Program-made: the position numbers and the translations under genes
Part shown: piece after piece, positions 2-51,522 of the stretch
How positions within the stretch are numbered: position 1 is the first letter of the stretch
Layout of the letters: every line of letters starts with the position of its first letter
Virus record (IMG/VR): IMGVR_UViG_3300028173_000007
Span: 25,588-89,587 of that record
Source of the DNA: a virus
Length of the DNA: 64,000 bases
Strand: one strand, 5' to 3'
The notes under the pieces: model-generated
Told to the model about the DNA's origin: nothing
Database searches by the model: none
Seen by the model: the letters and a program-made list of their open reading frames with translations, nothing else

Positions 2-3000
2 TCCACGGTCCCGATCAAGAAGCTCGACGAAGACGAGCGGGACCTTGCGCTCGACGTGATCGGCCGGCTGCGCCGCGAGATCGGGAAGCTCAAGAGCGGG
101 CTCGAAGCCGGCGCGAAGGAAGAACAGCGGTTCGGCGGGCACTCGGTGTTCCGCACTCACCACGGGATGCACTCGTTCACGGCGCCCACCGGGGCCGACA
201 AGGGCAAGATCGCGGAGGCCTGGATCACGTCGCACCTTGAGCGCGTCGGGCACGAGGCCATGAAGGAGGCCGCCGACAAGCACTATGGCGGCGAGAACGA
301 AGACGCCCCCCACGAGCACGGCATCCCCGAGAACGTACTTCGCGCCGTCCGCGCCACGCTGCGCCCCGAGGTGGTGAGCGCCTGGAGCATGGGCGGTATC
401 AAGCTCATGGACGACGGCCAGGCGCAGAAGAAGGCCGCAGCGGCGGCCAGCGCCACCGGGAAGCAGGCCGTGGCCGACAAGGCCAAGCGCGCCGAGGCGA
501 AGAAGGCCCGCGCGGCCGAGAAGAAGGCCGCCCGCGCCGAGAAGGCGCGCGCCGAGGCGAAGCCCGAGGACGACCCGAAGCGGGGCCCCGACGGCGAGCT
601 CACCGAGAAGGAGAAGGAACAGCGCCGCGAGAACGCGCGGCGCCGCAAGGGGACCGGGAAGCCCGACGAGCCGAAGAAGGGCCGCGCCCCGGCCTTCGAC
701 AATGAGACCTGGGCGAAGAAGTACGGGAAGCACGCGGAGAACGTCGAGGTCGTCGGCGGGCACATGACCGTATGGCAGATGGGCCAGAGCGGGAGCATGG
801 GCACCCGCGGAAACTGGTACGTCACCGCGCCCAACGGGAAGAACGTCGGCCGGGCGGCCAGCGCGGAGAAGGCGCGGGAGGTGGCCGAGCAGAAGGCCGC
901 TCAGCACAAGCCGCTCGGCGCTGGCGAGGTGCTGGACGAGATCCGCAAGCGCGGGGGCCACGGCATCGCGGACGGGATGCACGCGGACGCGAAGGAACGC
1001 ACCGAGGGCCACTACACCGCCACGACGCACACCGGGAAGAAGATCCCCAAGGGCGGCCCAGGCGAGCACACCGAGGGCTGGAGCTCCGCGGAGCACTCCA
1101 GCGCGGCGGCCTGGCACAAGAAGCAGGAGGACGCCAAGCGAGCGGACCCGCGTTCAAGCCTCGAAGACGCGAACCACCACGGCCGCATGGCCGAAGCGCA
1201 CCTCGGGGCCTACACGGCGATCCACGAGGGGCGGACGAAGGCGCGGAAGGCGAAGGACTTGGCCGCGCTCAAGGCCGACCCGAAGGCGAGGTTCCACGAC
1301 GCCCTTGCGTCGACCGGGTACGGCCCCGGCGGCCGGGGCTATGAGGCCGTGCGGGACTACATCGGCCTCGCCAACAGCCCCGAGGAAGCGGGCACCCTGG
1401 CGGCCGCCCTCGACTACTCGGGAGAGGCGGGCGCGCGTAGCTTCGAGGCCCTGGCGGCCCGAGCTCTCAAGGTGTCCCCGGCCGAGCTCGTGACGCGCAA
1501 GCGCGCCCACGCAGCGGCCGGCGCGGCCGCCGGCGGCGCCAAGGGCGACGAGCCGAAGCGGGTCGGCGGGGAGCTCACCGAGAAGGAGAAGGAGCAGCGG
1601 CGGGAGAACGCGCGCCGGCGGCGCAAGTTCACCCCCATCGACCCGAAGAAGGCCGCAGTCCCCGAGCACCTCCGCGCGGGGACTGCGGCGCAGGTGGGCG
1701 AGAACATCGCGGCGAACGCCAAGCTCGCCAGCACCGACGACGAGCGACAGAACGTCCGCGATCACGTCTCGCGGCTACTCGCCGCGGGGACGATCACGTC
1801 CGAAGCCGGGGAGCGGGCGTACCTGGCCGCTGGGCTGACGAAGGACGGCGGATTCAAGGCGGCCGAGCCCGCCCCCAAGGCCGAGCCCGCCCCCAAGGGG
1901 CGGGAGGCCCGCCAGGCCGAACACAAGCGCCGAGGCGGCGAGGCGGCGACCGCTCACCAGGCGGTCGCCGACCACCAGAGCGCGTGGATCAAAGAGCAGG
2001 GCGGGTCCGCCAAGTTGCGCGAGCGCGGCATCCGGCGCATGGACCAGATCCCGGTGCCGGACGAGCTCAAGATGAAGCGCCAGAAGGCGCGGGATGCCGT
2101 TGCGGCGCACCACCACGAGAACGGCGGCGCGGGCGGCTTCACGGCCGCGGCGATCAACGACGCGACCGCCTTTATCAAGCGCAGCGAGGCCAGCGGCGGC
2201 AACTTCGAGGTGCTCAAGTGGGCCCGCGCGGTGTTGTCGCAGATCAAGGCGGCCGGCCCCAACGCCGTGCGCGACACCCCCCCGCACCCCGGCAAGGGGA
2301 GCGCCACCGCGACCGCAGAGAAGTTCCTCGCCCGGCTGCGCGACCAGAACAGCCATTGGGGCGGAGACGACCGCAACGACGTGGGCGATGCCATCGTGAA
2401 GGAGGGCCGAAACAAGCGGACGGGGGCCGCGGAGCACGTCGTCAACTTCACGACCCGCCGCGGCCGCGAGGACCACCAGCGGCTCGGGGCCATCGCGACC
2501 GGCTTCGGCGGCCAGATGGTGCGGCGCAAGGGCTTCGTGTTCGCCACGCCTGAGAAGGCGCGCGCCTTCGCGGAGGCGCACGCCATCCACCACGGCACGG
2601 GCTCGCCCTACAGCGCCAGCAAGGCGGCCCAGGAGCCCGAGGGCGGCAAGCGGGGGCCCGGCGGTGAGCTCACCCCCGACGAGCTCGCCCAGCGCCGGGA
2701 GAACGCCGCGAAGCGCAAGGGGACGGGAAAGCCCGACGACGCGCCCAAGGCGAAGCCGAAGAAGGCCGACGAGCCCAAGGCGAAGCACCACCACGACGGT
2801 TGGCCCGAGGACCAGTACCAGCGCGCGCAGGCCTTCCGGCGCGCGCTCTATGAGGGCCCGATCAAGCTCGGGAACGGCGGCCAGGTGGAGACCACCGACA
2901 CGGGAGTCAAGGTCACGCACCCCGACGGGCGTGAACACGAGATGCGCGTCCCCAGGATCGACCGCGACAACACGGCGATTGAGGCCGCGGAGAACGGCGG

Positions 3001-5554
3001 GCCCGTGATCGCGGCGCCCCTGGGCAGGATGGAGGGCTACACCGCGAAGGCCGACGGCCTCCCGGTGGGGGGCCGCGCTCACATCGCGTACAACAAGGGC
3101 CAGGACGCCCTCGCCAAGCTCCACGCGCACGCCAGCGCACGGGCCCGCGGTGAGAAGGTGGACGCCGGCGAGCTCCACGACGCGGCCGAGGCCGTCACGC
3201 GACACGCCCAGGCCGTCGAGGCGGCCCACACCCGCCGCGGGAAGCCGCGGGACGCGGCCCTGCGGAAGCGCGGAAGTCTGATCGCGCAGCGAGACGCCGT
3301 GCTCTCCAGCGCCCAGGATGCCGTCGCGTTCCACGGCCAAGGCAAGCCCGACCCCGAGGCCTTCCACGCCTGGGCCAAGGACAAGAGCCCCGAGAAGCTC
3401 GTAGACCTGGCCGCGAAGGTCACCGGGGAGGGCGGGCACCCCGCCGCAACTGAGCTCGCCTTCGGCAAGGTGCCGGCGCACGACATCGTGCGCGCCGCGA
3501 TGGACAGCATCGGCAAGACCGGCTCTCGTGCCCGAAGCATCCCCGCCACCATGCGGCGCGCGGTCCATGCCCTCGGCCACCTGGCGGGGGAGCACCGCGG
3601 ACACGAGAGCATGGCCCTCGGCGCGGCCTGGACCGACCTTCCCGACGCGGTGTTGGAGGGGATCAAGACCCGAGGCCGCACCGCAGACGGCAAAGACTGG
3701 CACCCCAACGGCCAGCGGAAGCGCGCCGCGGAGAACGCCGTCGGTGAGCTCCGCGCCCGCGACAACGCCGCCCAGCGGCTCGGCGTGCCCCGTGTCGAGG
3801 TTCAGCCGAAGGTGGGGGTCAACGGCACCGAGCTCAGTCACTTGGCGGCGGGCATGAGCGACCTTCGCAAGCGGGCCAGCGCCGGCGACAAGCACGCGGA
3901 GGGCGAGATCAAGATGCGCGGCATGGCCGCCGATCTCCTGGGCCACGGGAAGCACGTCCTCGACTCCCTGCACGACCACGGCGGCGTGCATGAGGTGTTC
4001 GGCGGCGACCACGAACACATCAAAGCGCCGGACGGGAGCACCTACCGCCGGAACACGGGCCACGCCGGCGAGACGACGTGGAAGAAGGTCGGCGCGGACG
4101 GCACGACCGGCGAGTCGTGGAACCGCGGGGCGAGCCGCGCGGCTCTCGAAAAGCAGCACGGCACCGACGGGTGGGGCGACGCCAACGAGACGAAAGAGCA
4201 GGCCCACGGCCGGCTACTGGCCGACCTGAGCACGCAAGCCGGGCAGACGAGGCGGACGCCTGGGCGAAAGGAGCTCAGCGGGTACGACAAGACGGGGATC
4301 GCGATCCGCCAGCACCTCGAAGGCTCGAAGCTCATCGAGCACGACGAGCACGGCCCCGTGTCGCTCGGCCAGGTGGCCGAGGTCATGGACCGGCACCAGA
4401 ACGTCGCGGAGGCCGGCTCGAAGCGCGACAACATCCCCTCGCCCAACTGGCCGGCGAAGCTCTCCGACGAGCGCCTGGGCGAGATCGTGAAGCACCGCAA
4501 CGAGCCCGGTCTACACGACCGCTTCCACCGGGAGCAGACCGCGCGCGCCGATCACGAGCTCCACCAGGGCGACCACGGCGATCACGAGGCGGCGAAGTCC
4601 GGTAACGGCTGGACGGTCAAGAAGGGCGGAAAGCACACCGGGATCAAGGCCGACACGAAGGGCGAAGCCCTGCACGCGGCCGGGATGCTCCACCGAGGGG
4701 ACTCGGGCGAGGACGTAGAGCACGCCCTCGCCACGGGCACGGCGAAGCGCGCGGTGGGCGTCTACAAGGAACGCCGGCGCCAGGCCGCCGCGGGGGCCGA
4801 CGCGGCCAGCCTGCACGCCATGACGCAGGCGACGGCGCCCGCCGCCGGTGAGTTCAACGTCGAGGCGAAGCCGCACACGACCCGAGCGAAGGCGGCCGCC
4901 CGCATGGCGAAGTTCGCCAGCACCGAGGATGATCGCGTCAACTTGCAGAGCTACCATGTGAAGGATGGGCACGCCACCGCGACGGACGGGCACCGCCTGG
5001 CCAGTATCCCCGTGAAGGGTGACCACGAGGACGGGGCGACCTACCGAGCTCACGGCGACGCGGTGCCGAAGCACATCGAGGGCGACGCCGAGAAGGTGGC
5101 CGCGTGGCACAAGGGCTGGGGCCGAGGCTCGCAGAGCGACGTGAACTTCCCCGACTACACGCAGGTCACGCCCAAGGGGCACCCCCACGTCGATCACGTC
5201 GATGCGAAGCACCTCACGACCGCACTTCGGATGCTCAAGCCGCACATGGACGGGAAGGTCCCCCACATGCGCCTTGAACGGAAGGACGGGAAGCTCTACG
5301 CCACCGCCGACGTGGGCCACGCGGTAGACGGCGGCGTGGCACGCATCCACCTGGGCGACACCTCGCACCCTGACGGGCAGGTGGGCATCAATCACAAGTA
5401 CCTCTCCGACGCGACGCAGGGCGCAAAGGGCACGGTCCAGATCAAGACCGGGAGCATGAAGCCCCGAGCCGACGACAGCGACCACGGCCTCGCGCCGATG
5501 GCCGTACACCGCGAGGACGGCGAGAAGCACATCATCATGCCGCTGCGCGTGTGA
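2..5554 (+). CDS. Giant multidomain head-module protein with C-terminal beta-clamp-like domain (5' partial)
   Basis: The frame is open through the left edge, so the true start is outside; the first in-window start codon is a GTG at 56. The first residues (TVPIKKLDEDER) recall the beginning of XkdF-like phage proteins. About 1,830 residues rich in Ala, Lys, Glu and His follow. Counting from the GTG, three near-identical linkers with core GELTEKEKEQRRENA lie at about residues 172, 499 and 862 and appear to separate modules. From about residue 1600 the protein resembles bacterial DNA polymerase III beta clamp: ATDGHRLA at about 1642, FPDYTQVTPK at about 1698, and a terminal IIMPLRV like the VVMPMRL end of DnaN. 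About 230 residues match, enough for roughly two of the three clamp domains. Position ahead of the prohead protease suggests a virion or head-assembly protein. The clamp resemblance is my own reading of motifs; the rest has no recognised function. Confidence 0.75.
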   Translation, partial: STVPIKKLDEDERDLALDVIGRLRREIGKLKSGLEAGAKEEQRFGGHSVFRTHHGMHSFTAPTGADKGKIAEAWITSHLERVGHEAMKEAADKHYGGENEDAPHEHGIPENVLRAVRATLRPEVVSAWSMGGIKLMDDGQAQKKAAAAASATGKQAVADKAKRAEAKKARAAEKKAARAEKARAEAKPEDDPKRGPDGELTEKEKEQRRENARRRKGTGKPDEPKKGRAPAFDNETWAKKYGKHAENVEVVGGHMTVWQMGQSGSMGTRGNWYVTAPNGKNVGRAASAEKAREVAEQKAAQHKPLGAGEVLDEIRKRGGHGIADGMHADAKERTEGHYTATTHTGKKIPKGGPGEHTEGWSSAEHSSAAAWHKKQEDAKRADPRSSLEDANHHGRMAEAHLGAYTAIHEGRTKARKAKDLAALKADPKARFHDALASTGYGPGGRGYEAVRDYIGLANSPEEAGTLAAALDYSGEAGARSFEALAARALKVSPAELVTRKRAHAAAGAAAGGAKGDEPKRVGGELTEKEKEQRRENARRRRKFTPIDPKKAAVPEHLRAGTAAQVGENIAANAKLASTDDERQNVRDHVSRLLAAGTITSEAGERAYLAAGLTKDGGFKAAEPAPKAEPAPKGREARQAEHKRRGGEAATAHQAVADHQSAWIKEQGGSAKLRERGIRRMDQIPVPDELKMKRQKARDAVAAHHHENGGAGGFTAAAINDATAFIKRSEASGGNFEVLKWARAVLSQIKAAGPNAVRDTPPHPGKGSATATAEKFLARLRDQNSHWGGDDRNDVGDAIVKEGRNKRTGAAEHVVNFTTRRGREDHQRLGAIATGFGGQMVRRKGFVFATPEKARAFAEAHAIHHGTGSPYSASKAAQEPEGGKRGPGGELTPDELAQRRENAAKRKGTGKPDDAPKAKPKKADEPKAKHHHDGWPEDQYQRAQAFRRALYEGPIKLGNGGQVETTDTGVKVTHPDGREHEMRVPRIDRDNTAIEAAENGGPVIAAPLGRMEGYTAKADGLPVGGRAHIAYNKGQDALAKLHAHASARARGEKVDAGELHDAAEAVTRHAQAVEAAHTRRGKPRDAALRKRGSLIAQRDAVLSSAQDAVAFHGQGKPDPEAFHAWAKDKSPEKLVDLAAKVTGEGGHPAATELAFGKVPAHDIVRAAMDSIGKTGSRARSIPATMRRAVHALGHLAGEHRGHESMALGAAWTDLPDAVLEGIKTRGRTADGKDWHPNGQRKRAAENAVGELRARDNAAQRLGVPRVEVQPKVGVNGTELSHLAAGMSDLRKRASAGDKHAEGEIKMRGMAADLLGHGKHVLDSLHDHGGVHEVFGGDHEHIKAPDGSTYRRNTGHAGETTWKKVGADGTTGESWNRGASRAALEKQHGTDGWGDANETKEQAHGRLLADLSTQAGQTRRTPGRKELSGYDKTGIAIRQHLEGSKLIEHDEHGPVSLGQVAEVMDRHQNVAEAGSKRDNIPSPNWPAKLSDERLGEIVKHRNEPGLHDRFHREQTARADHELHQGDHGDHEAAKSGNGWTVKKGGKHTGIKADTKGEALHAAGMLHRGDSGEDVEHALATGTAKRAVGVYKERRRQAAAGADAASLHAMTQATAPAAGEFNVEAKPHTTRAKAAARMAKFASTEDDRVNLQSYHVKDGHATATDGHRLASIPVKGDHEDGATYRAHGDAVPKHIEGDAEKVAAWHKGWGRGSQSDVNFPDYTQVTPKGHPHVDHVDAKHLTTALRMLKPHMDGKVPHMRLERKDGKLYATADVGHAVDGGVARIHLGDTSHPDGQVGINHKYLSDATQGAKGTVQIKTGSMKPRADDSDHGLAPMAVHREDGEKHIIMPLRV

Positions 5555-33701: not shown

Positions 33702-36134
33702 ATGAGACGAGTCATTTTCAAGCTCGACGGGCAACGGCTCGACCGCCCCGACGCGGAGGCGCTACACGCGCTCCCCGACGAGGCCCTCCGCGACATTCTC
33801 CGCGGGCTGGTGAGCGGCGCGGAGAAGTTCGTCCTGGGCGGCTTCGAGGTCACGTTGACCGGCCCGAGTGAGCCGAAGCAGATCAACGTCGCACTCGGGG
33901 CCGCGGTGAGCGGCTGGACGCGCGACGACGGCGTGACCGAGTACGGGCAGCTACTCGACGAGGGGCTACAGGCCGCGCTCTTGTACGACTTCGCCGGCCT
34001 GGCCGCCGGCACCTATTCGGTGTGGGTCCGTTTCGCCTACGTCGAGGGGCAGACCGCGAACCGCGCCTACCTGGCCGACGTGGCCGGCGTGGGCGTGGAG
34101 CGGGTGCAGCCCACCGAGACGCGCCTCCTGGCCGATTGGGAGCTCACCGCGACCCGAGACGGCGTGGACCCTGATCCCGGCTTCGGGTGGCTGCGCGTGG
34201 CGCGCGTGGCCTACTCGGGCGCCGATCTCGTGGATACTGACATCGTGCTCGGCCGCGAATCTCTGTTCGAGGGCGTGGGCACCGCGAGCGGCTGGGCCCT
34301 TCCCGATCACAGCCGAGACGACGACCGCCTGGCGAACGGCCTGACCACGCTCAAGACCTGGGCCTGGGCCATCATGCGCCGGGTGCAGGAGCTCGGCGGG
34401 GCCAAGTGGCACCGCGCGCCGCTCTACGCCGAGAACGTCCGCAGCGCCAGCACCGAGATCGGCATCGTGGACGGGACCGGCGATGCCGACAGCGCGCACC
34501 TCAAGTTGACCTCACCAGTGGCCGCCCTGGCGCTCACGGTGCAGTTCGCGGGAGGCGTGGGGCAGGACCCCCGCGCCGGGGTGGTCTTTCATCCCCAGGC
34601 GGCGGCGCCTGGCCAGTGGGACATCGACGCATCGGCTGGGTCTGTCCTGCTCTCGGCCTCTACCATCCGGCGCTACATTCGCGGTGCCGGCGGCATCCTC
34701 TCGCGCACCGCCGGCGCGAACGCCCTACTCACGAACGCCGGCGCGGCCCTGCACACCTTCCGCGGCCTGACCTTCCGCGCAGCGGCGGGGGGTGACCCCC
34801 TTCTCCTGCTCAACGGCGGCGACCTGACCTTCGTGGACTGCCGTTTCGAGGACACCGGCGGGGCCACGTCTGCTCTCGTGGAGCTCACCGGCGCGGCGCG
34901 CGTCCGCTTCATCAACTGCACCTGGGTCCCCGCCGCGGGGGCTGACGGCCTACTGGTGAACCATGCCGGCGCAGACGTGGTACTCGACGGCTGCACCTGG
35001 GCCGGCGGCCGCTACGGCGCCCAGATCGCCACCACGCCCGCGCGGCTTCTGGTGCGCGCTCCGCACTTCACCGGCGGCATCGACACCGGGATCAAGGGCG
35101 CGGCCGGTGGTGAGGTGCTGGAGCTCACCGGGCCCACCTCGGACGGCTCGATTGTGACTGCCCTCGTGGACCTGGGCGGCACGGCGCCGGTCTTCTACTC
35201 GGGGGCCGGCGCCGCCGATGCGCTGGTGCCCAACACGGGGGACGTGCGGCCCTCGCTGGACGCCGGCGTGCTCCGAGCTCGCAAGGGGCGCCTGTACCTC
35301 GACCACCGGACGGGGGGCGCCGCGGGCGGCCGGTATATCTACGCCGCCGACGGATTCCTCAAGGGCACCGCGCGCGACCTGGGCGCCCTCGACGCCGACT
35401 TCCGCTATCTGCACGCCGGCGGGCGGCGGGTCATGCTCCAGTCCGGCACGGCCGGCCGAGGCCGCGGCATGGTCTACGACCCGACCGAGATCGGCGGCCT
35501 GGGCCTGATTCAGATCGCGGACGTGGACGACCCCGGCGGGGGCGAGGTCGTCACGCCCGACGTGGGCCTCAACGCTGACCGCATCCTCCTGGGCCGGACC
35601 ATCGGCGCGAACGCGGCCGGGTGGCTGACCCGACACACGGCCTTGCGCGGGTGGGTCCGCATTCGCGTGGACGAAGGTTTCGCGGCGCCCTACTTCCAAG
35701 TCGAGTCCGCCCGCGGGGACGGGACGCCAATCGCGGTGACGCGCGAGCTCGACGACGTGAACGGAGACGCCCACTACTACACGATCCGGCATGACGCCTT
35801 CGGCGGCGGGATCGACACATGCTTCTCGGCGCAGGGCTACGCCGGGGCACTCGGTCAACGAAACTACGACCAGAACGCGGCCTTTTCCGAGACCCTCGGC
35901 CGGACCTTCCACGTTGATCTGCGGCAGTTGCAGATCGGCGGGGACGTGACACTCGTCCTCGTGCCCTACATGCGCGAACCGAACGGCGACATCGTGCATT
36001 TCAAGGGCGATGCGACCTGGGCGACCGCCATCGGGACCTATTGGGATCTGCCGAAGGCCTACGAGATCCACGTCCAGGCCCACGGGAAGGCCGGCGCGGA
36101 GTTTGTCGAGGGGGGTGGTGACCTCTGGCCTTAG
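33702..36134 (+). CDS. Tailspike/tail fibre with right-handed beta-helix
   Basis: An 810-residue protein, ATG 33702, the last gene of the rightward tail block. Residues about 1-230 form an attachment domain. Residues about 310-520 show short repeating strands with spaced Asn/Cys/Gly (LTFVDCRFEDTGG, VRFINCTWVPAAG, VVLDGCTWAGG), the ladder pattern of a right-handed parallel beta-helix as in tailspike depolymerases. No catalytic acid set can be assigned by eye. The C-terminal 200 residues are likely the receptor-binding head. Its stop overlaps that of the convergent small gene. Confidence 0.7.
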   Translation: MRRVIFKLDGQRLDRPDAEALHALPDEALRDILRGLVSGAEKFVLGGFEVTLTGPSEPKQINVALGAAVSGWTRDDGVTEYGQLLDEGLQAALLYDFAGLAAGTYSVWVRFAYVEGQTANRAYLADVAGVGVERVQPTETRLLADWELTATRDGVDPDPGFGWLRVARVAYSGADLVDTDIVLGRESLFEGVGTASGWALPDHSRDDDRLANGLTTLKTWAWAIMRRVQELGGAKWHRAPLYAENVRSASTEIGIVDGTGDADSAHLKLTSPVAALALTVQFAGGVGQDPRAGVVFHPQAAAPGQWDIDASAGSVLLSASTIRRYIRGAGGILSRTAGANALLTNAGAALHTFRGLTFRAAAGGDPLLLLNGGDLTFVDCRFEDTGGATSALVELTGAARVRFINCTWVPAAGADGLLVNHAGADVVLDGCTWAGGRYGAQIATTPARLLVRAPHFTGGIDTGIKGAAGGEVLELTGPTSDGSIVTALVDLGGTAPVFYSGAGAADALVPNTGDVRPSLDAGVLRARKGRLYLDHRTGGAAGGRYIYAADGFLKGTARDLGALDADFRYLHAGGRRVMLQSGTAGRGRGMVYDPTEIGGLGLIQIADVDDPGGGEVVTPDVGLNADRILLGRTIGANAAGWLTRHTALRGWVRIRVDEGFAAPYFQVESARGDGTPIAVTRELDDVNGDAHYYTIRHDAFGGGIDTCFSAQGYAGALGQRNYDQNAAFSETLGRTFHVDLRQLQIGGDVTLVLVPYMREPNGDIVHFKGDATWATAIGTYWDLPKAYEIHVQAHGKAGAEFVEGGGDLWP

Positions 36135-36340
36135 CCGAGGACGCCGGCCGCGGTGAGGCGCTCAACCGCCCTCGCCAGGCGGTAGCGGTCGAGCTCGGTA
36201 CAGACGGCGGACGGTAGGACGACCGCGCTTCGGACGGGGCTTCTGGGGTCGTACCATTCCTCGACGCACGACAACTGCGGCACATCGCCGCACGTCCAGC
36301 CCTTCGCGGTGAGGTGCTCGGTGAGCTCAAGGCGCGTCAC
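36131..36340 (-). CDS. Small unknown protein of the REC cassette
   Basis: A 69-residue protein read leftward. The GTG at 36340 overlaps the REC gene stop (GTGA); a longer open frame upstream only shadows the REC gene. The sequence (LTEHLTAKGWTCGDVPQLSCVEEWYDP) is compact with two cysteines and an alpha-helical C-terminus (RYRLARAVERLTAAGVLG). No family recognised. Tight coupling suggests it works with the receiver protein. Confidence 0.6.
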   Translation of the reverse strand: MTRLELTEHLTAKGWTCGDVPQLSCVEEWYDPRSPVRSAVVLPSAVCTELDRYRLARAVERLTAAGVLG

Positions 36341-36912
36341 TGGCCGAGCAGCGCGGATACCGTGGCGTAGGGCTCGCCAGGCACGAAGGGTTTGCGCACA
36401 TAGGGCACGCCCAGGTCCTCGGCCACCCCAGGCGCGAAGGTGGCCGAACCCGACATCAACGCGAAGGGCACGCCCAGCGACGCCGCCAGCACCCCGAGGT
36501 CTCGCCCGTAATATGGGTCCATGTGCAGATCGGAGAGCACCGCAAGGGGTGTGCGTCTGATCCACCAGCCCACCGCGACCGGCCGCAGGGGGATCACGGG
36601 GACCGTGAGGTGCATCCCGAGCATTCGCGCCACCGATTTACGAATGTAGGCCTGATCGTCCACCACGAGGACGGCGCGGGTGTAGGGCCCGAACCGCGGC
36701 TTCGCAAACTGCGCCAACATGCCGAAGGTGCAGCCCTCGACGTGTTGGATCGCGCCCCGCGAGGCCCCGGTCTCGTCGCACATGGCGCAGCGCCAGGACA
36801 CCCCGCCCGTTCGGTCTCGGTCGTACTCACCAGTCGCCCCGGAGTGAAACATGGTCGCGCTTCGGGGCGCGGGGCCATCCTCGAACGGCAATCCGACCGG
36901 CCGCTCAGACAT
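36337..36912 (-). CDS. Phage response-regulator receiver (REC) protein with N-terminal zinc finger
   Basis: A 191-residue protein; ATG 36912. Residues about 78-191 form a complete two-component receiver domain: acidic pair D85-D86 (VLVVDDQ), phosphoacceptor D128 (LSDLHM), Ser154 (MSGSA) and K174 (VRKPF), in the right spacing. Residues 42-61 carry CxxC-x11-H-x3-C (CAMC ... HVEGC), probably a zinc finger. There is no DNA-binding output domain, so it would act by protein contact, as CheY-like proteins do. It is encoded between a tiny membrane protein and a 69-residue protein, all overlapping and leftward. A host histidine kinase is the likely phosphodonor; none was seen in the window. Confidence 0.8.
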   Translation of the reverse strand: MSERPVGLPFEDGPAPRSATMFHSGATGEYDRDRTGGVSWRCAMCDETGASRGAIQHVEGCTFGMLAQFAKPRFGPYTRAVLVVDDQAYIRKSVARMLGMHLTVPVIPLRPVAVGWWIRRTPLAVLSDLHMDPYYGRDLGVLAASLGVPFALMSGSATFAPGVAEDLGVPYVRKPFVPGEPYATVSALLGQ

Positions 36913-37030
36913 CGGACCACCACCCCAGCCGAGCACCGGCGACGAAGACCCCCAGGGCCCCACCGCTGACCAGCGACAGCACCAGAAGCCCGTAAGCCCA
37001 TGCCGCCGCGTCGTCTACCCCTGTCCCCAT
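36905..37030 (-). CDS. 41-residue single-span membrane protein
   Basis: A very short gene with ATG at 37030 and a strong GGGAGGG ribosome site about seven bases ahead; its stop overlaps the REC start by eight bases. The product has a short N-terminal part (MGTGVDDAAAW) and one membrane segment (YGLLVLSLVSGGALGVFVAG). The strong ribosome site and coupling argue that it is real despite its size. It may tether or inhibit a membrane partner of the receiver protein; that is inference. Confidence 0.6.
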   Translation of the reverse strand: MGTGVDDAAAWAYGLLVLSLVSGGALGVFVAGARLGWWSDV

Positions 37031-37066
37031 GCGAGCCCTCCCGTTGTGTCCAGTGAGCGTGGACGG

Positions 37067-37085
37067 CATACGAACGCCTGTCAAT
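37067..37085. promoter_or_regulatory. Putative operator overlapping a -35 box (matches site at 63193-63211)
   Basis: The 19-mer CATACGAACGCCTGTCAAT matches 15 of 19 positions of the minus-strand sequence at 63211-63193. Read leftward it includes a consensus -35 hexamer TTGACA (37084-37079) ahead of the membrane-peptide/REC cassette, although no good -10 stands at standard spacing. Confidence 0.45.
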
Positions 37086-37102
37086 GTTCTGCGCCCGCTC
37101 AC

Positions 37103-37123
37103 GCTGGTGATAGGATCACCAGC
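37103..37123. promoter_or_regulatory. Perfect 9-bp inverted repeat upstream of endolysin
   Basis: GCTGGTGAT-AGG-ATCACCAGC is a perfect dyad with a 3-bp spacer, 18 bases before the endolysin ATG and its GAGGTGA ribosome site. It could be a repressor operator or a leader hairpin controlling lysis timing. The remainder of 36913-37141 holds the leader and promoter of the leftward cassette. Confidence 0.55.
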
Positions 37124-37141
37124 CTAACCCGAGGTGAGTCA

Positions 37142-37993
37142 ATGAGCTTTGCGACTGCTCTCGCCGCTCTTGAGGCGGCCCACGCCGACGAGCTCCGACA
37201 CGTCTCCCGTGAGGGCGCACACGAGCGGCTCGACCTCGAAGCGAGGATCGCGGAGCTCAGCGCGGAGCTCAGCGCGCGCCAGGTGGTGCCCTCCCCGCAG
37301 GCGGCGCCGCTCGGGGCGGGCACCGAGCTCGGCGGGCCCGGTCGCGTGGCTGTGTCGGCCGCGCTGGCGGACTGGCGCGCGGTCGTTCAGGAGCCGCCGG
37401 GAACGGGGGCCGAGCGCATTCACGAGATCATCGAGGCGTGCGGGTGGGGCTACTCGGTGGTCTCGGCCGACGAGCGGGCCGAGCGCCGGCGCGATGGCCA
37501 GCCGCACCCCGACCGCTACACCCACAACGGGGATTTCTCGTGGTGTGGGTGTGCCGTGGGCTCGTGGTGGGCCCAGGCCGCTTTGCGGCCCGTCTGCCGT
37601 CCTGGCATCGACGAGCGAAGCGCGCGCAGCTACAAGCGGACCCCGCTCAAGGTCTTTTCGTCGTGCTACAGGCTCGTCCACCACTACGCGGCGGGTACGC
37701 CGCGGATCGTTGACCCCGAGGGCGTGCAGGCCGGCGACATCGTGATCGTCGGCCCGAAGCCTGGCCACCGCAAGGCGAGGACGTGGGGCGCGCATGTGAC
37801 GATGGCCACCGGGCCGCTACAGGCCGACGGGGAGGTCCCCACCGTCGAGGGGAACGCCAAGGGGCGAGGCCCGAACGGTGACACCTACGAGGGCGTGGTG
37901 TGTCGCTCTCGGCCGCTGGCGAGCAACCGCGCTTCCGTCTACCGTGTGCTCCATTGTATCCGGCCCATCGCGGCCGACTTCGCGGAGGTGTGA
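37142..37993 (+). CDS. Endolysin, CHAP/NlpC-like cysteine peptidase
   Basis: A 283-residue protein, ATG 37142 with GAGGTGA upstream; the longer open frame is non-coding upstream sequence. Residues 1-45 are a coiled-coil-like helix (HERLDLEARIAELSAELSA). From residue 90 the catalytic part appears: Cys near residue 135 (DFSWCGCAVGSWW), His near 217 (TWGAHVTMATG) and an acidic/Asn site (TVEGNAKG), in the order of CHAP/NlpC-P60 peptidases that cut peptide cross-links. No signal peptide is visible, matching release by the adjacent holin. Confidence 0.65.
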   Translation: MSFATALAALEAAHADELRHVSREGAHERLDLEARIAELSAELSARQVVPSPQAAPLGAGTELGGPGRVAVSAALADWRAVVQEPPGTGAERIHEIIEACGWGYSVVSADERAERRRDGQPHPDRYTHNGDFSWCGCAVGSWWAQAALRPVCRPGIDERSARSYKRTPLKVFSSCYRLVHHYAAGTPRIVDPEGVQAGDIVIVGPKPGHRKARTWGAHVTMATGPLQADGEVPTVEGNAKGRGPNGDTYEGVVCRSRPLASNRASVYRVLHCIRPIAADFAEV

Positions 37994-37995
37994 TC

Positions 37996-38454
37996 TTGTC
38001 CCGTCTCGTGTTCCTCATGTTCGCCCTCGTGCCGGCCGCTGCGCTGGCCCAGGAGGCCGCCGCGGCCTCCCCCTGGGCCTCGGCCCTCGGCTATCTGCTC
38101 CAGGCGGCAGCGGTCGTCCTGCTCGCCCTCGCGAGCCTGGCCTCGAAGCGGCTTTTGGCCCGCTTCGGCGTGAAGCAGTCCGCGGAGCTCCAGGCCGCCA
38201 TTCAGAACACGGTACGCACCGGCGTATCCGCGGCCGAGGAATGGGCCGCGCGAGAGCTCAAGGCCGGACGGGTGCCCGACAGCCGCGAGAAGTTCGAGCT
38301 CGTGCTAGGGCTCGTCAAGGCCGCCTGGCCGAAGGCCCGCGAGAACGATGTTGTGCAGGCCATCGACGCCGAGCTCGCGCGAACCCCTGGCCTGGGCGCC
38401 ACCGGCAAGCGCGCCGTTGGGCGCTTCGATGAATTCGAGGGCATGGAGGGGTGA
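37996..38454 (+). CDS. Holin, LLH-like
   Basis: A 152-residue protein. TTG 37996 is chosen because a strong GGAGGTG lies seven bases upstream, two bases after the endolysin stop. The N-terminus is signal-like (LVFLMFALVPAAALAQ), then a membrane segment (SALGYLLQAAAVVLLALASLA), then a helical C-terminal domain (KQSAELQAAIQNTVRTGVSAAEEWA ... KFELVLGLVKAAWP), which is the layout of LLH-type phage holins. It would form inner-membrane lesions to release the endolysin. Confidence 0.65.
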   Translation: MSRLVFLMFALVPAAALAQEAAAASPWASALGYLLQAAAVVLLALASLASKRLLARFGVKQSAELQAAIQNTVRTGVSAAEEWAARELKAGRVPDSREKFELVLGLVKAAWPKARENDVVQAIDAELARTPGLGATGKRAVGRFDEFEGMEG

Positions 38455-49666: not shown

Positions 49667-50248
49667 ATGACCGACACTAAGACCGGGTGGCGCGAGCTCG
49701 CCGCCGCCCAGAAGACGAAGAAGAAGACCCGCAAACGGCCGGACGACCCGGAGCACCGCGCACAGTGCGGCATCGTGGAGGTGATGCGGCTCACGCAGAT
49801 CCCCCACGCGGCGAGCCTCAACGGCGTGAGGCTCCCCCCCGGCCTGGCCGGGAAGGCGAAGGCCGCGGGCATGACCGCCGGCGAGCCGGACTTCCGCATC
49901 GACGGCCACCCGTTGCGGCCCGAGCTCGCCACCCTCGCCCTCGCCGCGGTTCGCCTCCGCGGTGTCGCTGGCAAGTTCGCGGAGGGGCCGCAAGCTCGAC
50001 AACTTGAGGCCGTGGCCGATTGGCTGGCCGTCGGCGCCCCGTCCGCGGTGTTCGTGGAGCTCAAGGCCGACGACGTGGCCAAGCGCAACCGGCTCACCGA
50101 CCCCGAGGCCGGCGCGAGCGACGTGCAGCGCGCCCGCATGGCCGAGATCCGACAGGTGAGCGGCGCCGAGTGCTTTGTGGCCTACGGCATGGACGACTGC
50201 CTGCGGAAAATGGGCGAGCTCGGCTTCGCTGTGAGGGGGTGCCTGTGA
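49667..50248 (+). CDS. VRR-NUC-type nuclease
   Basis: A 193-residue protein, ATG 49667. It shows the PD-(D/E)XK layout of phage VRR-NUC proteins: GIVEVMRLTQIPHAAS near residue 35, GEPDFRI near 72 and VELKADDVAK near 130, the last two carrying the metal-binding D and ExK. Phage members act as structure-specific or Holliday-junction nucleases. A basic stretch (KTKKKTRKR) near the N-terminus suits DNA binding. Translation is probably controlled by the hairpin on its start. Confidence 0.7.
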   Translation: MTDTKTGWRELAAAQKTKKKTRKRPDDPEHRAQCGIVEVMRLTQIPHAASLNGVRLPPGLAGKAKAAGMTAGEPDFRIDGHPLRPELATLALAAVRLRGVAGKFAEGPQARQLEAVADWLAVGAPSAVFVELKADDVAKRNRLTDPEAGASDVQRARMAEIRQVSGAECFVAYGMDDCLRKMGELGFAVRGCL

Positions 50249-51522
50249 GCGCGTCGACTGACCTTCCCGTCTACAACGCAACCGGGGGCCGCAACACCTG
50301 GGCGACCCCGCCCGCGTTCCTCCGCGCCGCCGCCGCCGCCCTGGGCGTCGAGGACTTCGCCCTCGACATCGCCGCCCTCGGGTGGAGCTCCCAGGGGCGC
50401 CGCTACTTCGGGCCCGACGCCGAGATCATGGCCGACCGTGACGCCTTCGGGGGCGACCACCCGCCCATGCCCCGCACCGCGGGCCTCGCGCCCGGCTCGC
50501 CCGAGCTCGTGGCCAGGTGGCGCGCAGACGGCGCCCGCTACGCAAACCCGCCCTACTCCCGCGCGTGCCTCGCGTGCCGCGACGGCGAGTGGAAGCGGGC
50601 CACGAAGACCCGAAAGGGGTGCTCGGCCAAGGGCCACGCCAGCCGGACGGTCACCGACTGGATGCGCGCCATCGCGGCCGCCGGCGTCGACCCCGAGGGC
50701 GGCGGGCCCTTCCTGGCCCTGCCCGCGTTCCGGCCGGCGACCGAGTGGTTCAGCCGCCACGTTCACGGCGTCGCGCGTCGCGTGGTCCTGCCCCGCGGCC
50801 GGCTGCGCTTCGAGACGGGGCCGGGCAAGCCGGCGAAGACGGGCGCCCCGTTCCCCTCGTGCCTCATCGAGTACGTCCCGCCCCCGCCGGGCTGGGCCTG
50901 GGTGACGCAGTACGGCGCGATCAACGCGGACGGGACCGACCCCGATATCCCGCCCCCCGTCGTGCGGCGGGAGTCGGACCCGGCGAGGTCCTACGTCGTG
51001 CGGGGGAGCGTGGCGTGTCTCCTGGGTGCCGACATCGCGCGCCAGAAGGTCGCGCGCGAAAGGGTCGCCCTCGGGGTGCCCGAACTTGAGCCCGTGGAGC
51101 CGCCAGCCGACCGGGAGTGGTTGGCCCGAGTGGAGACCGCCGCAGCGGAAATCCGGGGAGCCTACGGCCCCGAGGCCCTCGCCGGCCTCCCGCCCGAGTA
51201 CCTCACCGGGGGGCGCGTGAACCGCATCGCCGTCACCGTCACCACGAAGCCGACGCCCGAGCCCGTGAAGCGGGGGAATGTGAAGCTGATCACCCTGGGG
51301 GGGGGCGCGGAACAGGGGGGGGAGGATAGCGGCGCAGCCGCTCGCCAGGTGAGCGAGTTGCGGCCCGTTCGTGACGGTGGCGTGGGGCGCGGCACCGCGG
51401 ATCTCTCCCACCGCGGGGTGTGCGGGTGCTGTGGAGCTCCCCGAGGGCCCGACGCCAGCATGACCCACGACGGCGAGTGCATCTGGCACCCCTCGCGGGA
51501 CATCGGCCTCTCCCCATACTGA
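50245..51522 (+). CDS. Dam-type DNA N6-adenine methyltransferase, C-terminally extended
   Basis: A 425-residue protein, GTG 50245. The first 220 residues match phage Dam-family enzymes: ATGGRNTWATPP start, ALDIAALG, and motif IV ANPPYSR near residue 100, then FLALPAFRPATEWF and a PSCLIEY end. A cysteine-rich insertion follows motif IV (CLACRDGEWKR ... KGCSAKG). The C-terminal extension, about 200 residues, ends in another Cys cluster (GVCGCCGAPRGP ... GECIW). Runs of nine (51297-51305) and eight G (51315-51322) lie in the extension and could slip. It probably protects phage DNA from restriction. Confidence 0.75.
   Translation: MSASTDLPVYNATGGRNTWATPPAFLRAAAAALGVEDFALDIAALGWSSQGRRYFGPDAEIMADRDAFGGDHPPMPRTAGLAPGSPELVARWRADGARYANPPYSRACLACRDGEWKRATKTRKGCSAKGHASRTVTDWMRAIAAAGVDPEGGGPFLALPAFRPATEWFSRHVHGVARRVVLPRGRLRFETGPGKPAKTGAPFPSCLIEYVPPPPGWAWVTQYGAINADGTDPDIPPPVVRRESDPARSYVVRGSVACLLGADIARQKVARERVALGVPELEPVEPPADREWLARVETAAAEIRGAYGPEALAGLPPEYLTGGRVNRIAVTVTTKPTPEPVKRGNVKLITLGGGAEQGGEDSGAAARQVSELRPVRDGGVGRGTADLSHRGVCGCCGAPRGPDASMTHDGECIWHPSRDIGLSPY

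Follow-up and report, generated by a model that had tools for sequence, protein, structure and literature searches.

A probable stand-alone receiver protein in a variable slot between the tail and putative lysis genes of a myovirus

In this work we have asked whether a small phage protein, P0002, encoded between a tail fibre-like gene and putative lysis genes, is a genuine receiver (REC) domain and, if so, from where it might be phosphorylated and on what it might act. The stretch of DNA that was analysed, referred to here as the window, comprises 64,000 bases and corresponds to bases 25588-89587 of an 89,587-base IMG/VR virus record with a GC content of about 72%. The record was typed as a myovirus by its matches to tail sheath, baseplate wedge, major head protein and head protease. 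A host inference via capsid relatives in genome contigs gave no match. At the beginning of the window (56-5554) lies a gene for a protein of 1832 residues, the C-terminal 220 of which match the phage DNA polymerase processivity factor family, while its first 1600 residues have no family. The locus itself is arranged as follows.

33702..36134, plus strand: 810-aa tail fibre-like protein, the end of the tail module and the left border of the slot (weak beta-helix match)
36131..36340, minus strand: P0003, 69 aa, family unassigned (ORF and translation)
36337..36912, minus strand: P0002, 191 aa, with an N-terminal CX2CX11HX3C motif and a C-terminal receiver domain (about 79-189)
36905..37030, minus strand: P0001, 41-aa peptide with a single transmembrane (TM) stretch, first gene of the trio (ORF and translation, hydropathy)
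37031..37141, no strand: divergent intergenic region of 111 nt separating the trio from the gene of the putative endolysin
37103..37123, no strand: perfect 9-3-9 palindrome (21 bp), GCTGGTGATAGGATCACCAGC, candidate operator or leader hairpin of the lysis mRNA
37142..37993, plus strand: 283-aa putative CHAP-like endolysin, the right border of the slot (assigned by eye)
37990..38454, plus strand: 154-aa holin-like protein (weak Holin_LLH match)

The first-pass annotation had described three overlapping leftward genes at 36131-37030, and the reading frames and translations agree with it exactly, giving proteins of 41, 191 and 69 residues. P0001 and P0002 start with ATG and P0003 with GTG, the first two genes overlap by 8 nt and the last two by 4 nt, and the P0003 gene runs convergently into the tail gene, again with an overlap of 4 nt. 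A ribosome-binding-like (Shine-Dalgarno-like) GGGAGG stands just before the ATG of P0001; a scan of the trio region for promoters and terminators found none. The third-position GC of the P0002 and P0003 frames (0.84 and 0.87) is gene-like when set beside the phage mean of 0.89, and the P0001 frame has a weaker coding signal (0.76). P0001 is the membrane peptide that had been predicted, with one strong and clear hydrophobic TM stretch (hydropathy 2.15 over 19 aa). Of 49 closely spaced genes in the window, just 4 are preceded by a gene for a small hydrophobic protein. Searches of all three proteins against Pfam, PHROGs and NCBIfam returned a sub-threshold REC match and nothing else, and P0003 had no meaningful family, PDB or phage match.

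Is P0002 really a receiver? All the phosphorylation residues that had been claimed for it, D85, D86, D128, S154 and K174, are at these positions, and with P175 they align with CheY and the phage receivers in the same order and spacing; Y171 occupies the position of CheY Tyr106, the aromatic switch. The Pfam model PF00072 matches the protein with E=0.14 over its whole length and 0.044 over the REC part, at 12.8-14.4 bits, which lies below the Pfam cut-off of 30.2, and the match spans just half of the model. When PF00072 was run against the 89.6-kb phage genome, P0002 was its sole match (E=0.0037). The homology becomes clearer in profile comparison: hhalign against nine REC sequences gave a probability of 83 and E=8e-6 over 108 columns, compared with 0.002 for the best of 300 shuffles and 0.049 for the best other window protein tested. 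In the PDB the top phmmer match was MtrA (E=0.014), with an alignment running through all catalytic positions. A tblastn search of the REC part against a plasmid collection had among its high-ranking matches three that we translated; they proved to be the REC of a hybrid kinase and two OmpR-type response regulators, 30-36% identical across the whole domain. A match that would assign the domain to another flavodoxin-like family, one of the results named in advance as refuting, was not seen. Structure prediction, also proposed beforehand, gave a divided answer. AlphaFold2 with an alignment of five phage receivers produced a REC-like beta-alpha alternation (pTM 0.63, pLDDT 65), a shape that the alignment partly builds in, and Foldseek with this biased model returned receivers as top PDB matches and V22 gp30 as the first viral match; the single-sequence model had no usable fold (pLDDT 35).

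Could P0002 instead be a decayed REC remnant derived from a host, or a different Rossmann-like domain, incapable of phosphotransfer? The sub-threshold Pfam score over half of the model would fit such a protein, as would the lack of any PHROG match, which even the degenerate receiver of phage V19 has. However, all catalytic and switch residues are kept in order and spacing, the full-length profile alignment beats all shuffles, the checked top matches of the unbiased search are receivers, and the reading frame is intact with a gene-like codon bias. We regard decay or chance resemblance as quite improbable. P0002 is very probably a divergent but real REC domain, as judged from sequence and modelling, and its complete acidic pocket predicts that it is competent for phosphorylation. 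No known output domain was found in it; the idea that it is a response regulator of the classical winged-helix type was rejected, since P0002 has no such domain. Like the bacterial single-domain response regulators CheY, DivK and Spo0F, it would combine the REC fold and acidic pocket with the lack of a DNA-binding domain; it differs from them in its N-terminal CCHC motif, its shortened alpha3 region and its phage context.

The zinc finger ascribed to P0002 stands as a motif and not as a family: C42-X2-C45-X11-H57-X3-C61 is present, but residues 1-80 have no Pfam match. From its sequence the motif may bind zinc, and it probably offers a surface for partner binding. The same CX2CX11HX3C spacing is seen at the C terminus of a Dam-like methyltransferase encoded at 50245-51522 of the window.

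The trio had also been presented as a cassette that might recur, and here the result was negative. Searches of viral contigs, GTDB genome contigs and phage isolates for P0002 relatives found an identical copy of the same phage and no diverged relative, and the three genes together were found in that copy alone. Two sister phages hold other genes in the slot. The sister G001, whose head (capsid) protein is about 60% identical to that of the window phage, has four leftward genes there, including those for a TM peptide, a Cys/His-rich protein and a helix-turn-helix (HTH)-like protein, followed by a weakly Amidase_2-like gene; the sister G008 has another leftward gene set. A receiver was found in neither, and the 810-aa tail fibre-like protein has an orthologue in the sister phages. 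Since the contents differ between sisters, genes are exchanged at this slot, and the receiver is an accession of the window lineage. The right border also varies: the weakly Amidase_2-like putative endolysin of a sister (L011:8667-9446) and the CHAP-like one of the window occupy the same position and look unrelated. An HTH-like protein sits in the slot of both sisters (L011:6913-7377 and L023:2560-2913), and a relative of these mutually related proteins, carrying an N-terminal zinc ribbon, is encoded outside the slot in the window phage (58446-58937).

The position between tail and lysis genes is as the first-pass annotation gave it, but the lysis labels are weaker than it implied. The putative endolysin has no match in Pfam, PHROGs or PDB, and the holin-like protein matches weakly (Pfam E=0.010-0.016; PHROG holin E=0.013). 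A pattern emerges from a comparison with phages of Alteromonas, in which V22 gp30 and A5 gp11 have been published as CheY-like proteins and R8W gp48 as PhoB, although with 153 aa gp48 is too short to hold the PhoB DNA-binding domain. In at least five lineages of Alteromonas phages, a stand-alone receiver is encoded after the tail fibre and near holin, spanin or endolysin genes (L027:7750-8578, L028:4497-5863, L031:3631-5745, L032:4139-5459, L033:1742-2836, L036:4187-5643 and L042-L045). The genes of V22 gp30 and A5 gp11 overlap an Rz-like spanin gene, the A5 gene lying three genes ahead of the endolysin; in R8W a holin precedes gp48 by two genes; in R9Y1 and its IMG/VR relatives (L042-L045) the endolysin is directly behind the receiver, and in PB15 both endolysin and holin are, with XX1924 being PB15-like. 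Every Alteromonas phage receiver gene compared is directly preceded by one for a small protein with a TM stretch, or with a TM stretch and a coiled coil, the two genes being separated or overlapping by fewer than 20 nt. The receivers of XX1924 and PB15 have Lys-Ser in place of Lys-Pro. In phage V19 the receiver is degenerate, lacking the phospho-Asp and Lys-Pro; its gene lies between tail genes and is preceded by that of a TM protein (L034:4498-4950). The phages concerned are of different morphotypes and one host genus, and because the receivers of R8W and R9Y1 are related to each other, as are those of V22 and A5, we count three to four independent origins; the placing in lysis clusters is a lead and not a statistic. 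An alignment of seven phage receivers was too divergent to serve as a search query. Many response-regulator matches in the phage collection were bacterial or faecal metagenome contigs and were left out of the phage receivers. The entry for Stenotrophomonas phage Bhz63 (L035:5217-6047) holds an OmpR-type regulator, whose neighbour is kinase-like and contains the string FLVTGVQTCALPIF, which resembles a sequencing adapter artefact.

How closely does P0002 resemble these proteins? Like V22 gp30 and A5 gp11 it stands alone, its gene following the tail fibre region and a gene for a small TM protein and lying near lysis genes. Those proteins (149 and 147 aa) have no zinc-finger-like extension, however, and their genes are co-directional with the spanin gene that they overlap, whereas the trio is on the minus strand and the putative lysis genes are on the plus strand. 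V22 gp30, 24% identical to P0002, also has a strong Pfam score; the REC scores are 79 bits for V22 and 77 for R8W, against 13.8 for P0002. The receivers of R8W (gp48), R9Y1, PB15 and XX1924 likewise stand alone directly behind a small TM protein and near holin or endolysin genes, but they lie on the same strand inside the lysis operon, have clear REC scores and lack the CCHC motif. The divergent cREC domains of jumbo phages, which are linked to NAD+/ADP-ribose enzymes, share with P0002 the catalytic aspartates (PMC7824862); an identity with cREC was rejected, as there was no NAD or ADP-ribose match among the P0002 neighbours searched. In the N4 pinholin paper, 'receiver domain' means something else. 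Stand-alone receivers had been called rare in phages, and they are uncommon among isolates, but they were already known from V22, A5 and R8W. In the papers that could be searched we found nothing on receivers within lysis cassettes, and their recurrent placing in lysis clusters is the more interesting result here.

What, then, might P0002 do? We consider it fairly probable that it is a phosphorylation-competent stand-alone receiver, set in a variable accessory slot between tail fibre and lysis genes of a myovirus, that is fed by host kinases and acts via protein contacts, possibly on lysis. D128 would receive phosphate from a host histidine kinase or from acetyl phosphate, the alpha4-beta5-alpha5 face would change shape via S154 and Y171, and the phosphorylated protein would then act by protein contact. 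Dependence on the host and action by contact are to be expected because the phage has no kinase and P0002 no known output domain. The proposal that it taps a host kinase gains from the complete pocket and from the lack of HATPase_c in the 89.6-kb record, which may be incomplete, a small phosphodonor being the other possible source. The most likely single target, tentatively, is an envelope or lysis step involving the membrane peptide P0001 or the lysis proteins, which is favoured by the neighbouring lysis genes and by the coupling to a TM peptide, both matched in the Alteromonas phages. The suggestion that P0002 could time lysis thus has indirect support from the receivers inside Alteromonas phage lysis clusters, and the divergence of its own gene from the lysis genes speaks against it. 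A host signalling pathway, which P0002 would intercept as a decoy or phosphate sink, comes next among the targets, itself somewhat unlikely and favoured by the opposite orientation and the exchangeable slot.

Taken further, P0002 might have no role in lysis at all and might silence a host response, such as envelope stress, motility or defence, purely as a decoy or sink. This would suit a protein that lacks an output domain, comes from a phage record without its own kinase and is encoded in a variable accessory slot where the sisters have unrelated small proteins; and for one phage protein, PIT4, action on several host histidine kinases is known. A pure sink, however, would have no need of the CCHC motif or of a coupled TM peptide, and the host kinase that it would drain cannot be named; we see this as rather doubtful. 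Could the CCHC finger bind DNA instead, for example the palindrome at 37103-37123, so that phosphorylation-driven dimerisation of the REC domain switches the divergent trio and lysis promoters? Two gene sets that diverge from a 111-nt gap containing a perfect 21-bp palindrome invite this idea, as does the spacing shared with the C terminus of the Dam-like methyltransferase of this phage, and Yersinia entomophaga is known to encode a PhoB-related regulator, RoeA, next to a phage-like lysis cassette (PMC10101115). RoeA is a DNA-binding domain that lacks a receiver (PMC10101115); P0002 is the reverse. Moreover, the CCHC motif matches no DNA-binding family and the palindrome occurs once. Such an arm arose in 22 of 5000 shuffles of the intergenic region, but about two dozen comparable palindromic sites lie within the 64 kb, so that they are not rare in this GC-rich genome. 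The palindrome may instead be an RNA hairpin, which would pair over the Shine-Dalgarno of the putative endolysin gene (z -2.0). We judge DNA binding to be unlikely.

Several observations count against action of a phosphorylated receiver by protein contact, our preferred explanation. The REC score of P0002 is far below the Pfam cut-off and the scores of V22 and R8W, and no diverged relative was found that could show selection on the pocket. Transcription of the trio leads away from the lysis genes, and both sisters manage without the trio. The comparable receivers in lysis clusters are all from Alteromonas phages, some of them interrelated and not fully independent.

The Alteromonas CheY-like genes have so far been filed as auxiliary metabolic genes or PhoB. 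Perhaps unrelated phage lineages have repeatedly recruited a receiver and a small membrane protein and so coupled the moment of lysis to signals of the host phosphorelay, the window phage having a distant, zinc-finger-bearing version with a divergent promoter; as a general account this is a long shot. If phosphorylation of the receiver alters holin or endolysin activity, it would be a new input to lysis timing, and the idea is testable in cultured Alteromonas phages such as R8W and V22. If it is true, P0002 would show that the link between receivers and lysis may reach beyond one host genus.
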